A stretch of 32,854 bases of DNA from positions 1 through 32,854 of the forward strand of contig QWOO01000247.1 of NCBI GenBank assembly GCA_003669615.1, given 5' to 3'. This document shows positions 673 to 5,400 of this stretch, one piece after another. Made by a program: the position numbers and the translations under genes. The notes under the pieces were generated by a model that saw only the letters and a program-made list of their open reading frames with translations, did not search any database and was not told where the DNA came from. The number at the start of each line of letters is the position of its first letter. Positions within the stretch are counted from its first letter, which is position 1. The stretch comes from Planctomycetota bacterium (lineage in GTDB: Bacteria; Planctomycetota; Planctomycetia; Planctomycetales; Planctomycetaceae).

Positions 673-956
673 ATCACAACCCGAAACGTAAGTGAGGGAT
701 TGAGCTGTCGCGTTTTACAAGTGTTGCGGGTGTAGTCACGGATTTCGGTAGGTCCTGCCTGCCGGGCAGGACTTCGCGGCTTGCCGCGACCTCTGTGCAT
801 GTGAACCGCCAGTATCGGCCTGCCGTCTCATTGGCACGTCGCACGGGGTTCGCCTGCGGCGAAAGTCCTTTCCGGCAGAAAGGACCTACTTTAACAACGA
901 TCCGCGACTACACCCCATGTTGCCGAAAATCCGTCGCTGACGCGTCGGGTTATGAT
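673..956. repeat. Nested inverted-repeat element (two repeat units head-to-head)
   Basis: Outer arms 673-701 and 928-956 (23/29 complementary), middle arms 731-743 and 900-912 (TGTAGTCRCGGAT, 12/13), inner arms ~748-774 and ~862-889. Each half contains two short hairpins. Confidence 0.75.
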
Positions 957-1069: not shown

Positions 1070-3748
1070 CTACTTGTACGTTGTCGGGGGCAATTTGATC
1101 AGCCTCTCAAGTGAACCGTCTATCTCTTTGTCTGACGAATCAAAGCTCTGCACCCGAAGCCATTCGTCATACGCTTCACCATTGCGACCCGACCGTTCCA
1201 GGACTTTCGCCCGGTTCTTTCTAAGTGGCACGTTCCGAGGATGTTCGAACAAACACCCGTCAAGATACTGGAGCGCCTCTTCAGCAGCCCCCGTGGCCTC
1301 CAAATGCTGAACGCGAGCGATCACGATCTGGTCTGTAGCACGCGGACGATCGCTTTTCCAAATTTGTGAAGCCTTTGCAAACAGAGGCTGCTGAATCGCC
1401 GGCACGCCATTTAATTCCACTGCACATTTCACACAGGCCTCGTAGGTGGAAGGCATAAACCAGTCGAGCGCTACGTCCGCTCCGAGCGACGTCGTCAGCC
1501 GCCTCATAATTTGCGGATAGAACACGTCCGATGCCGCGAGGGACTGAGCCCAGCAGGACCGGCAATCTTCCGTTCTTCCCACCTGAAGCATAAATGATCC
1601 CAAGGCAAACAATGCCGGGGCTCCATGCGGCTCCGAGAACCTCACGTAGTTCATTGTGCCGTGCGATTCAGAATACTTGTCCATCAAAAATTCATTGGCA
1701 GCCAAAGGAAGACCAATCGTGAGGACACACGACGACTGCTCCATCAGCCGCCGCGATTCCGTGTGCCACGGATACTTTTGAAGTGCCGATTCCACTTCGC
1801 TGCGCACGGCCAGCTTCATAGTGTCCGATGCCTTTTCATCCAGAATTCGGTCAGCTAACCGAACGGGTGTCAGTTCTCGAAATACATTTTCTGCCTGCGC
1901 GACCGTGAGCCCTTTTTCCTTCAGCAGTCCGGTGGTCAACTCACGCTGGAACAACAGTTCCAAAAACAACACCCGGGTGCGGTGTCCCTGAAGATCATCG
2001 GGACAACGCTCCAGTGCGATGCTTAACTGCTTCAGCATGGCATCGCCGGAATCCATCAAAACCGCCAAATCCGGACGATTCAGCAAACGCTCGGCCGGCA
2101 CGATGGCTTCAAAAACGCGAGCAGCTGCAGTGGTATTCGGGATCAGTGCCGCCGTGGAAATTACGAGTGACAGCCAGATTCCGACAACAAGCAGACCAGG
2201 CAGCTTGAGGTACCATTCTTCCGAGGTTGATCCCTTTTCAACGCCGCTTCCAGACGCCAGCGAGTACTTTTCCAGGAGCACGACAAGAACGACAACAACT
2301 CCTGCGACGGACGGCAACGATATTCCGTAGTCAAAAAAAGCGGCCCCGGCCAAGGCAGCTCCCAGAAAGACCACGGAACTGCCGAGGCGATCCGCCAGAT
2401 CAGTCTTCCTGTTCTGTCGGACTGTTTTCAGGGTCGTCGCGCGACGAGCAAAAACCAGCGCCAGTACGACAAACGCCAGCATGCAAACAACGCCGGCCAG
2501 GCCGGACTCCACAAATAATTCCACGTACTGATTGTCAGCTCTCTGGAACCATTTCCCGGTGTAATGCCGCTGATACGGCAGGGTCGCAAAACGATACGCA
2601 CCAAGACCGGAACCGAGAAATGGAAAATCAAAACCACTCTGTAACGAATCGGACCAGTGCAACAGACGGCCGGTGGATTCCGAAACCGGATCCTTCAGCG
2701 TTTGCAGTTCCGAAAGGACGATCGTATCAAGCTCCATCAGCACCAAGAGCGAACAACTCACCGCCACAAGCACCAACACACTACATGTGGCTGCCAGTAA
2801 TCGCCCACTGAACGAGCGACTGACCAGGAATGCTATCAGTCCAAGTACTGCGGCACTGACGCCGGCTCGCGACAACGTGACAGCGATCGCGGCCATCAGC
2901 AAAATGACGGCACTGATCGCCAGAATCTGCATGGGCGTGAGGTCCGCGATGCGTCCGACAAAGGTCATCCATGCCTCCCGAAATCTCTCGGTACTCGAAG
3001 CGCGGAGCCGTGAGGTCCGAGCCTCTGCCGGATGCCTGCTCTGGAAAAGCACACCCATCAGGAACAAAGCAGCTGCCAGGCACGAGATCAGCCAACCGGC
3101 GGCATTATTGGGATTCACGAAACAACCGAAAGGCGTTGTTTCACTGATTTTCCAGTCATTCCCGATCACGACGGCCCCGCCGCTGAGCTGTTGCGGGATG
3201 GCGAACACAGACATGGCGCAGCCGCTGAATACGAGCGTGGCTGCAACAAGCAACAAGTGAGTCCGGCTGCGTGCTGCTTCAAACACCACCAGCGTCACAA
3301 GAACGAGTGACATCATCCGACTCACCCACTGTCGCGTTTCCGCTGGCATCACACTGCGAGGCGAACGCGTGAACGCGATCGCGGGATCCAACGTGGCTGG
3401 CAACTGATCGACAAGCTCAAATTGAACGGCGTGCTCCATCTGAAGAACCGGTGGGGTGCAGATGGGCACGAGCTGAATTACGCCAATCAGTGCCATTCCC
3501 AGCAGCGGAAGACAGGTCAATGGAAGTCGCCTGCCCCAATCTCCGCAGAGCAACATTCCTGCCAAAGTGCACGCCCCTGCGATAACTGCCCCTGCCTGCA
3601 GAACCAGGTCCGCCTGAGGAATGGCACCTCCAAGAAACCATGGAACCACGGCAACCGCAAGCGTCGTGATGGCCAAACCCAGGATGCGAAGACCTTCCCC
3701 GATTCGATTCGCCGCACTTGTTTCCGTTTCGTGTGTGTCTGCCGGCAT
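1070..3748 (-). CDS. O-antigen ligase/polymerase (Wzy/WaaL-like) membrane protein with long C-terminal TPR-like region
   Basis: 892-aa ORF with many TM segments, a 'GCFVNPNNAAGWL' stretch and a central 'LGSGLGAYRFATLPYQ' motif region as in O-antigen ligase families; soluble C-terminal ~350 aa with repeat-like helices. Next to wecA-like and Wzz-like genes. Confidence 0.75.
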   Translation of the reverse strand: MPADTHETETSAANRIGEGLRILGLAITTLAVAVVPWFLGGAIPQADLVLQAGAVIAGACTLAGMLLCGDWGRRLPLTCLPLLGMALIGVIQLVPICTPPVLQMEHAVQFELVDQLPATLDPAIAFTRSPRSVMPAETRQWVSRMMSLVLVTLVVFEAARSRTHLLLVAATLVFSGCAMSVFAIPQQLSGGAVVIGNDWKISETTPFGCFVNPNNAAGWLISCLAAALFLMGVLFQSRHPAEARTSRLRASSTERFREAWMTFVGRIADLTPMQILAISAVILLMAAIAVTLSRAGVSAAVLGLIAFLVSRSFSGRLLAATCSVLVLVAVSCSLLVLMELDTIVLSELQTLKDPVSESTGRLLHWSDSLQSGFDFPFLGSGLGAYRFATLPYQRHYTGKWFQRADNQYVELFVESGLAGVVCMLAFVVLALVFARRATTLKTVRQNRKTDLADRLGSSVVFLGAALAGAAFFDYGISLPSVAGVVVVLVVLLEKYSLASGSGVEKGSTSEEWYLKLPGLLVVGIWLSLVISTAALIPNTTAAARVFEAIVPAERLLNRPDLAVLMDSGDAMLKQLSIALERCPDDLQGHRTRVLFLELLFQRELTTGLLKEKGLTVAQAENVFRELTPVRLADRILDEKASDTMKLAVRSEVESALQKYPWHTESRRLMEQSSCVLTIGLPLAANEFLMDKYSESHGTMNYVRFSEPHGAPALFALGSFMLQVGRTEDCRSCWAQSLAASDVFYPQIMRRLTTSLGADVALDWFMPSTYEACVKCAVELNGVPAIQQPLFAKASQIWKSDRPRATDQIVIARVQHLEATGAAEEALQYLDGCLFEHPRNVPLRKNRAKVLERSGRNGEAYDEWLRVQSFDSSDKEIDGSLERLIKLPPTTYK

Positions 3749-3855: not shown

Positions 3856-5400
3856 TCAATTCAGTGCATTTTCAATCATCGATGTTCGGCTCGCAGCAAC
3901 GGCAACATCGTGCATAGTCACCGCCGTCGGCAATCGTCGACTGATAAGGTGAGTGACGATATCTCGCAATTGCCCTTCAAACGGACGCAGTCCGATCATC
4001 AGCTCATTCACCCACTCCACCACAGCACCTTCAGGCGCTGCCGCTGCCAGACGCACGTGACCCGCTCGAATGCCATTGACAATGAGCGGAATGTCTGAAC
4101 GCCAGACATCGTGCAGTTCTCCCCGGGAACGTGATCGCCAAGTCCCGTGATATTCTTCGCCCATACTGGGCATGTTGATCATCAGGTCGACGCCGTCCAG
4201 CCCATGCTTTTCGGCAAATTCCGTCAAGGTTTGCCACAGGTGCTCCCAGGTGTGCTGGCCGTGCAGACGGACTTGTTCATCATGCAGAACAGGACTCGGG
4301 TCCGCTGTCTTCCGCACAAGCGAACTGGCAAAACGACGCAGGCGATTGGTCAGCAGATTGAGTTCCGCATGCCCAAAAGAGCGAGTAACAACCAGCAGAG
4401 AGAGGGCTGTCAGAACCCCGATGATGGCAATCAGGTCGCTACCCAGCGCCGCACCCGCAATCGCTCCAATGCCAGTGAGACTGCAGAGTGAGCCAACCAC
4501 AACCAGCAGTCGAACGCCGGTATGACCTTGACGAACAAGGCAATGATGGAGATGACCGCGGTCCGTTGTATATATACTTCGCCCGGTCAGTCGACGCCGG
4601 ACGATGGCCATCGCGACATCAAAAATTGGGATCGCCCAGATAGCCGTCGGCATAATCAAAGCAACAGCCGCGTACTGCTTCAGCGAACACTTCAAAGCAA
4701 CACACCCAAGAACCAGCCCGATCAACATGCTTCCCGAGTCGCCCAGAAACATTCGGGCGGGGGGCAGGTTGTAGACCAGAAAACCGCTTAGTGCTCCCGC
4801 AAGTGCAAGAGAAATCAGCAGACCATCAGGTCGACCACCGAGGATAAAAGTCACAGCCGCAACGGAGAGACTGAGAATGATTCCCGTGGTACTGGCGAGA
4901 CCATCCACTCCGTCAATCAAGTTCAGTGCGTTGATCGCCCCCAGAATCCAGAAGACCGTCACGAAGGGAGCCACATCACCGAATTCCAGCGGATACCCCA
5001 GGATCTCGATACGCTGAATCATAATCCCCGACGGAACCATCACCACGGCCGCAAGAAACTGGCCGGCAAGCTTCTGGCGGCCACGTAAACCGAAGCGATC
5101 GTCGAGCAGGCCAACGAAGACTATCAGCAGTGAAGCGCATGCCAGCGACATCAAAAAGCGAACGTCGCCTTCGTTTGATTTGAGCAAGTCAGGATAGGCA
5201 ACACTTGTGGCCAGCACGGCAATGACGATCGACAGCAGAACTGTCGGACCACCCGTGAGCGGGACTGCCTTTGAATGCAACTTTCGATGACCGTCAGGCC
5301 TGTCGACCAGGCCTATCCGGCGCGCGACAATTGCCATTAACGGTGAGATCACCACCGCAGCGATAACGGAAGTGATAATGGTGAGCAAGGGGAAGTTCAT
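3856..5400 (-). CDS. Undecaprenyl-phosphate N-acetylglucosaminyl/sugar-1-phosphate transferase (WecA/TagO/MraY family) with extra C-terminal domain
   Basis: Polytopic protein with 'PDGHRKLHSKAVPLTGGP', 'NALNLIDGVDGLASTTG' and 'ARMFLGDSGSMLIG', all hallmarks of polyprenyl-phosphate HexNAc-1-P transferases. Confidence 0.9.
   Translation of the reverse strand: MNFPLLTIITSVIAAVVISPLMAIVARRIGLVDRPDGHRKLHSKAVPLTGGPTVLLSIVIAVLATSVAYPDLLKSNEGDVRFLMSLACASLLIVFVGLLDDRFGLRGRQKLAGQFLAAVVMVPSGIMIQRIEILGYPLEFGDVAPFVTVFWILGAINALNLIDGVDGLASTTGIILSLSVAAVTFILGGRPDGLLISLALAGALSGFLVYNLPPARMFLGDSGSMLIGLVLGCVALKCSLKQYAAVALIMPTAIWAIPIFDVAMAIVRRRLTGRSIYTTDRGHLHHCLVRQGHTGVRLLVVVGSLCSLTGIGAIAGAALGSDLIAIIGVLTALSLLVVTRSFGHAELNLLTNRLRRFASSLVRKTADPSPVLHDEQVRLHGQHTWEHLWQTLTEFAEKHGLDGVDLMINMPSMGEEYHGTWRSRSRGELHDVWRSDIPLIVNGIRAGHVRLAAAAPEGAVVEWVNELMIGLRPFEGQLRDIVTHLISRRLPTAVTMHDVAVAASRTSMIENALN

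Follow-up and report, generated by a model that had tools for sequence, protein, structure and literature searches.

The stretch of DNA analysed (the window, 32,854 nucleotides from a planctomycete draft genome) carries at positions 748-889 an inverted pair, 142 nt long, of a unit of ~45 nt. In each unit a GTAG foot precedes an 8-bp hairpin with the loop TGCCG, and a second hairpin follows. The left unit is on the plus strand and comprises the foot (748-751), conserved across copies, the main hairpin GTCCTGCC-TGCCG-GGCAGGAC (752-772) and the second hairpin TCGCGGC-TT-GCCGCGA (774-789). A spacer that is variable between copies (790-848) leads to the right unit, found on the minus strand, which has the second hairpin TTCGCC-TGC-GGCGAA (849-863), the main hairpin GTCCTTTC-TGCCG-GAAAGGAC (865-885) and the foot at 886-889 (CTAC on the plus strand). 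The arms 748-774 and 863-889 form an inverted repeat of 85% complementarity. Folding of the segment 725-918 gives z = -10.6 against dinucleotide shuffles, none of which was equally stable. A sequence-only reading had described two TGCCG-looped hairpins at 752-772 and, on the minus strand, at 865-885, with two inner stem pairs changed on both sides (G-C to T-A and C-G to T-A) and companion hairpins at 774-789 and 849-863 that differ yet both pair. The main hairpins are borne out to the base, the paired changes can be read directly from the window and the companion hairpins match its sequence. The GTAG directly 5' of each main hairpin had been missed.

Also missed were the terminal repeats GGGTGTAGTC... 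that enclose the hairpin core, GGGTGTAGTCACGGAT at 728-743 (plus strand) and GGGTGTAGTCGCGGAT at 900-915 (minus strand), detected as inverted repeats and bounding an ISKra4-like element. The motif TGTTGC at 722-727 and again at 918-923 is a possible remnant of a target-site duplication, which fails in the strict 9-mer register (3/9 positions). Further out lie the two halves of a dispersed palindromic repeat, with approximate boundaries at 648-721 and 923-1016; an uninterrupted copy lies elsewhere (G000:C325:10769-10934). This third repeat, with GTTTYGAAGTTGCGC ends and a CACAACCCGAAACGTNAGTGAGGGA core, has numerous copies. In the window the hairpin-bearing element interrupts it, and at C325 it is intact. 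The neighbouring minus-strand genes at 1070-3748 and 3856-5400 resemble polysaccharide synthesis genes (Wzy_C O-antigen ligase domain, glycosyl transferase family 4).

The core element is found in ~20 full or decayed copies in the window's own genome, a draft assembly of 3.77 Mb in 350 contigs that is 62% complete. A survey of 59 genomes, made up of the own genome and 58 relatives, found it in half of the genus (9 of 18 genomes) and in none of the other 41. The highest count, 97 pattern matches for the hairpin, is that of genome G001; copy numbers are lower than the hundreds known from classic REP families. The GTAG foot is nearly invariant across copies and the TGCCG loop is likewise fixed. 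Among own-genome copies the left half often has GTCCTGCC followed by TCGCGGC/GCCGCGA, and the right half often has GTCCTTTC with TTCGCC/GGCGAA. Because the two halves are usually constant subtypes across these copies, a feature that the earlier reading had not noticed, they are old, separately inherited members of the family and the stem difference between the window's two hairpins was inherited rather than generated at this site.

Doublets identified in the genus (n = 29) are mostly 141-195 nt long, and single units and tandem arrays also exist. None of the 29 has identical stems; those of the L015 doublet match closely, and the more distant element at L185 has a doublet with identical stems. 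Whole doublets are arranged head-to-tail at three loci (L127, L129 and L131) with a period of ~190-196 bp, adjacent doublets being separated by a single base (CTACNGTAG). Single REP units in tandem, with a spacing of 33 nt, are found at L128 (G001:C9) and at G001:C6, C85, C110 and C130.

For the covariation analysis units had to carry just the foot, the loop and the 5' arm of the second hairpin, and were admitted whether or not their main stem paired. In the 89 units so selected, standard pairs make up ~89-93% at every stem position, and mutual information peaks on the true partner at 6 of 7 stem positions. The 54 distinct 25-mers give a covariation score of 0.472 versus 0.208 in shuffles, a value reached in 0 of 500, a count that is not a strict probability since the rows are related. 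When the partner position is slid along, pairing in this set drops from 85.9% to 35-55%; the set holds a few false positives, which depress its figures. A hand-picked collection of 38 units yields 92.1% pairing and a score of 0.512, and the unselected 54 are preferred as the basis for covariation. The compensatory changes suspected from the two hairpins of the window are thus a property of the aligned copies, and the second hairpin varies in a paired fashion too in other copies. In the 29 doublets the local hairpins pair 393 of 406 positions (97%) versus 290 of 406 (71%) for one long hairpin joining left and right halves, and where the halves differ the figures are 148/156 and 45/156; a single long hairpin is accordingly disfavoured as the fold of the element. 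Imperfect stems are commoner in copies with a damaged foot or loop (9/23 vs 8/59, p = 0.016), as expected if pairing is enforced at copying and decays afterwards.

Comparison of the positions of PF01797 matches and of the hairpin pattern across the genus revealed two Y1 transposase genes within ~60 bp of TGCCG hairpins. At locus L124 an intact ORF (893-1504) encoding a REP-associated tyrosine transposase (RAYT) of 203 aa has a complete doublet on either side (687-861 and 1501-1675). Its orthologue at L131 in genome G004 is flanked by a tandem of three doublets and, at the opposite side, by another REP, and a truncated orthologue abuts a doublet in G015 (L125/L132). A fourth one, from another planctomycete metagenome-assembled genome (MAG), neighbours hairpins with the same feet and loops (L185); L184 and L186 denote the L131 and L132 loci again. 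TGCCG-loop hairpins adjoin the transposase gene in all four close orthologues found, and the named records carrying the same RAYT clade are planctomycete MAGs. The L124 protein matches Y1_Tnp (PF01797, 24.1 bits for a cut-off of 23) and aligns with the TnpA_REP structure 4er8. Its H119, H121 and Y179, the HUH motif and catalytic tyrosine, are invariant in three aligned orthologues. It is labelled RAYT-type because its best family hit is NCBIfam REP_Tyr_transpos, with 70.1 bits, below the curated cut-off of 80, and E = 1.7e-19.

The stop codon TAG of the transposase gene is inside the GTAG foot of the next REP in three of the four orthologues. Precedents exist for REPs placed right at the stop codon of rayt (PMC2817692). 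The overlap was dropped as a rule, the L185 frame running on into the REP. More distant RAYTs, in the genus and beyond, mostly have GTAG/GTGG hairpins of other kinds beside them, with loops such as tcc, tct, ttct or ctccgc, and no REP was detected alongside a few of them. The genus holds a large variety of RAYT genes, the majority flanked on either side by GTAG/GTGG hairpin doublets peculiar to them, which makes these loci rich material on the coevolution of RAYTs and REPs.

The REP-associated transposase envisaged by the sequence-only reading is thus found beside the hairpins in relatives, while the window's own 62%-complete assembly yielded no orthologous RAYT. Its three Y1_Tnp genes were considered as the cognate enzyme and rejected: those on C289 and C74 are accompanied by other hairpins, and beside the one on C341 there are no hairpins of this family. 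G001, rated 100% complete, has only RAYT relatives of 32-34% identity. RAYT orthologues occur in 3 of 9 element-bearing genomes versus 0 of 9 others, numbers too few to show a correlation.

The family combines covarying stems with a fixed foot and loop and adjoins one RAYT clade. The inverted arms, the copies in the own genome and the doublets of the same kind that flank RAYT genes in relatives make it very probable that the window segment 748-889 is a REP heterodimer, a non-autonomous BIME/REPIN-like element recognised as folded single-stranded DNA by a cognate RAYT/TnpA_REP, with copies whose stems still pair being copied or moved. It is known that TnpA_REP binds folded single-stranded REP DNA using GTAG as a guide, and that one group of these enzymes depends on certain loop bases and on a stem that pairs, many substitutions within that stem being accepted (PMC8266576). 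A fixed foot and loop with interchangeable paired stems is, by analogy, this published recognition pattern. The planctomycete transposase would recognise the folded REP by reading the GTAG foot, the TGCCG loop and the paired stem, ignoring the exact letters of the inner stem. Paired changes would then accumulate family-wide because copies with still-pairing stems are those that get copied or moved. The elements are probably mobilised as single-stranded DNA by RAYT, which would have recognised, cleaved and moved the window copy and given it its shape. Among the kinds of selection that the earlier reading had listed, a transposase-recognition hairpin is supported by the covariation and the flanking RAYT genes, with the correction that the paired changes did not arise at the window locus.

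Template switching during replication (quasipalindrome correction) could copy one stem arm onto the other and generate paired changes in a single step with no selection on the hairpin. One report describes it as creating and maintaining hairpins with compensatory changes (PMC8794818), and the stems of the present family are short perfect palindromes. The palindrome-directed conversion proposed by the sequence-only reading may accordingly be a source of paired changes, and leaves unexplained the fixed GTAG foot, which is outside the palindrome, and the fixed TGCCG loop. Template switching does not predict the link to one RAYT clade either, and the excess of imperfect stems in copies with a damaged foot or loop argues against strong in-place repair. 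As a full explanation it is unlikely. It is compatible with recognition by RAYT, as it may supply the changes on which transposition selects.

That the ISKra4-like miniature element 728-915 is the sole mobile unit, with the inner hairpins as passengers devoid of a role of their own, is a good deal less probable. Related copies do have terminal repeats and 9-bp duplications: the flanking 9-mers match at >=6 positions in 8 of 17 elements, three of them perfectly, when 1% is expected by chance. Four of these eight carry REP-like hairpins inside, as called by a simple motif rule, and at L168 a fragment of an ISKra4-like transposase (119.9 bits, cut-off 205) is beside the same 16-nt end, on a contig that stops before the other terminus. 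Passenger hairpins would neither covary nor adjoin a RAYT, many doublets lack such terminal repeats (L005, L008, L010, L011, L012 and L015), and the doublets in direct tandem with a 1-nt linker and the single units in 33-nt arrays also speak against passengers. Slightly less probable still is a regulatory RNA element whose hairpins would serve to terminate or stabilise the transcript of the adjacent gene or to direct its processing. The element sits just past the stop codon of the minus-strand ORF 1070-3748, its sequence folds into strong hairpins as RNA, and REPs elsewhere can have such effects (PMC6006769). The RNA hairpin invoked in the sequence-only reading found no backing at this level, an Rfam search of the element giving no match and no intrinsic-terminator-like site being present at it; a search for a sigma-70 promoter at the element found none. 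An RNA role would also leave the dispersal, the GTAG feet and the RAYT neighbours unexplained, though it could be a secondary effect.

The REP heterodimer of the window belongs to a new REP family with its own RAYT clade, of a kind of element already known. GTAG REPs, inverted dimers, heterodimers, REPs nested in palindromes and RAYT neighbours have all been described (PMC3733652, PMC6006769), and GTAG repeats were reported from the PVC group including Planctomycetes (PMC3733652). The elements share with the GTAG REP heterodimers of the latter study the foot, a short hairpin, inverted pairs 20-100 bp apart with differing stems, the nesting in other palindromes and the RAYT neighbours. They differ from them by a second hairpin in each unit and by the combination of the TGCCG loop with widely varying stems; the sequence of the TGCCG-loop unit was not found in the text of that study, figures aside. 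As for the REPINs and BIMEs of Pseudomonas and E. coli (PMC3116915, PMC6006769), the element is a non-autonomous inverted doublet and the RAYT is flanked by its own REP type. Unlike these, stems are never identical in the 29 genus doublets and several element-bearing genomes yielded no cognate RAYT. Group 3 TnpA_REP of Stenotrophomonas maltophilia also acts on a perfect-stem hairpin with a GTAG guide and partly exchangeable stem letters (PMC8266576). It needs a particular loop base, and the TGCCG loop is fixed here; recognition by the planctomycete protein may be similar. With more than 12 distinct stems, all fully paired, on an unvarying loop and foot, the family is a natural data set on how a RAYT reads its substrate, and a planctomycete RAYT clade that has REPs of its own allows recognition to be tested outside Proteobacteria. 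The family also provides material on why REP dimers are so often heterodimers, a question posed in PMC3733652. The general picture of what REPs are is unchanged.

The enclosing element may be akin to ISKra4-family insertion sequences, to judge from its GGGTGTAGTCGCGGAT end, which is the one neighbouring the L168 transposase fragment, and from the 9-bp duplications around related small elements. Unlike these insertion sequences it has no transposase gene, its interior being the REP doublet, and no ISKra4 gene was found in the own genome. A tentative proposal, somewhat less likely than not, is that a REP heterodimer was captured in an ISKra4-type miniature element, so that the hairpins could be spread by two unrelated transposases, RAYT acting on single strands and the ISKra4 enzyme on a double-stranded unit with terminal repeats. 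The two stems of a genus doublet would be prevented from becoming alike, perhaps because identical ones would make a single long and unstable palindrome. The same terminal ends also bound other small elements without REPs. Those at L156, L164, L172, L173 and L178 are 90-162 bp long, with GGGTGYAGTCGCGGAT ends and no TGCCG REP; most of them hold a different long palindrome (GGGAGGGCGAGGCTCCTGCCGAGCC) and several have perfect 9-bp duplications.
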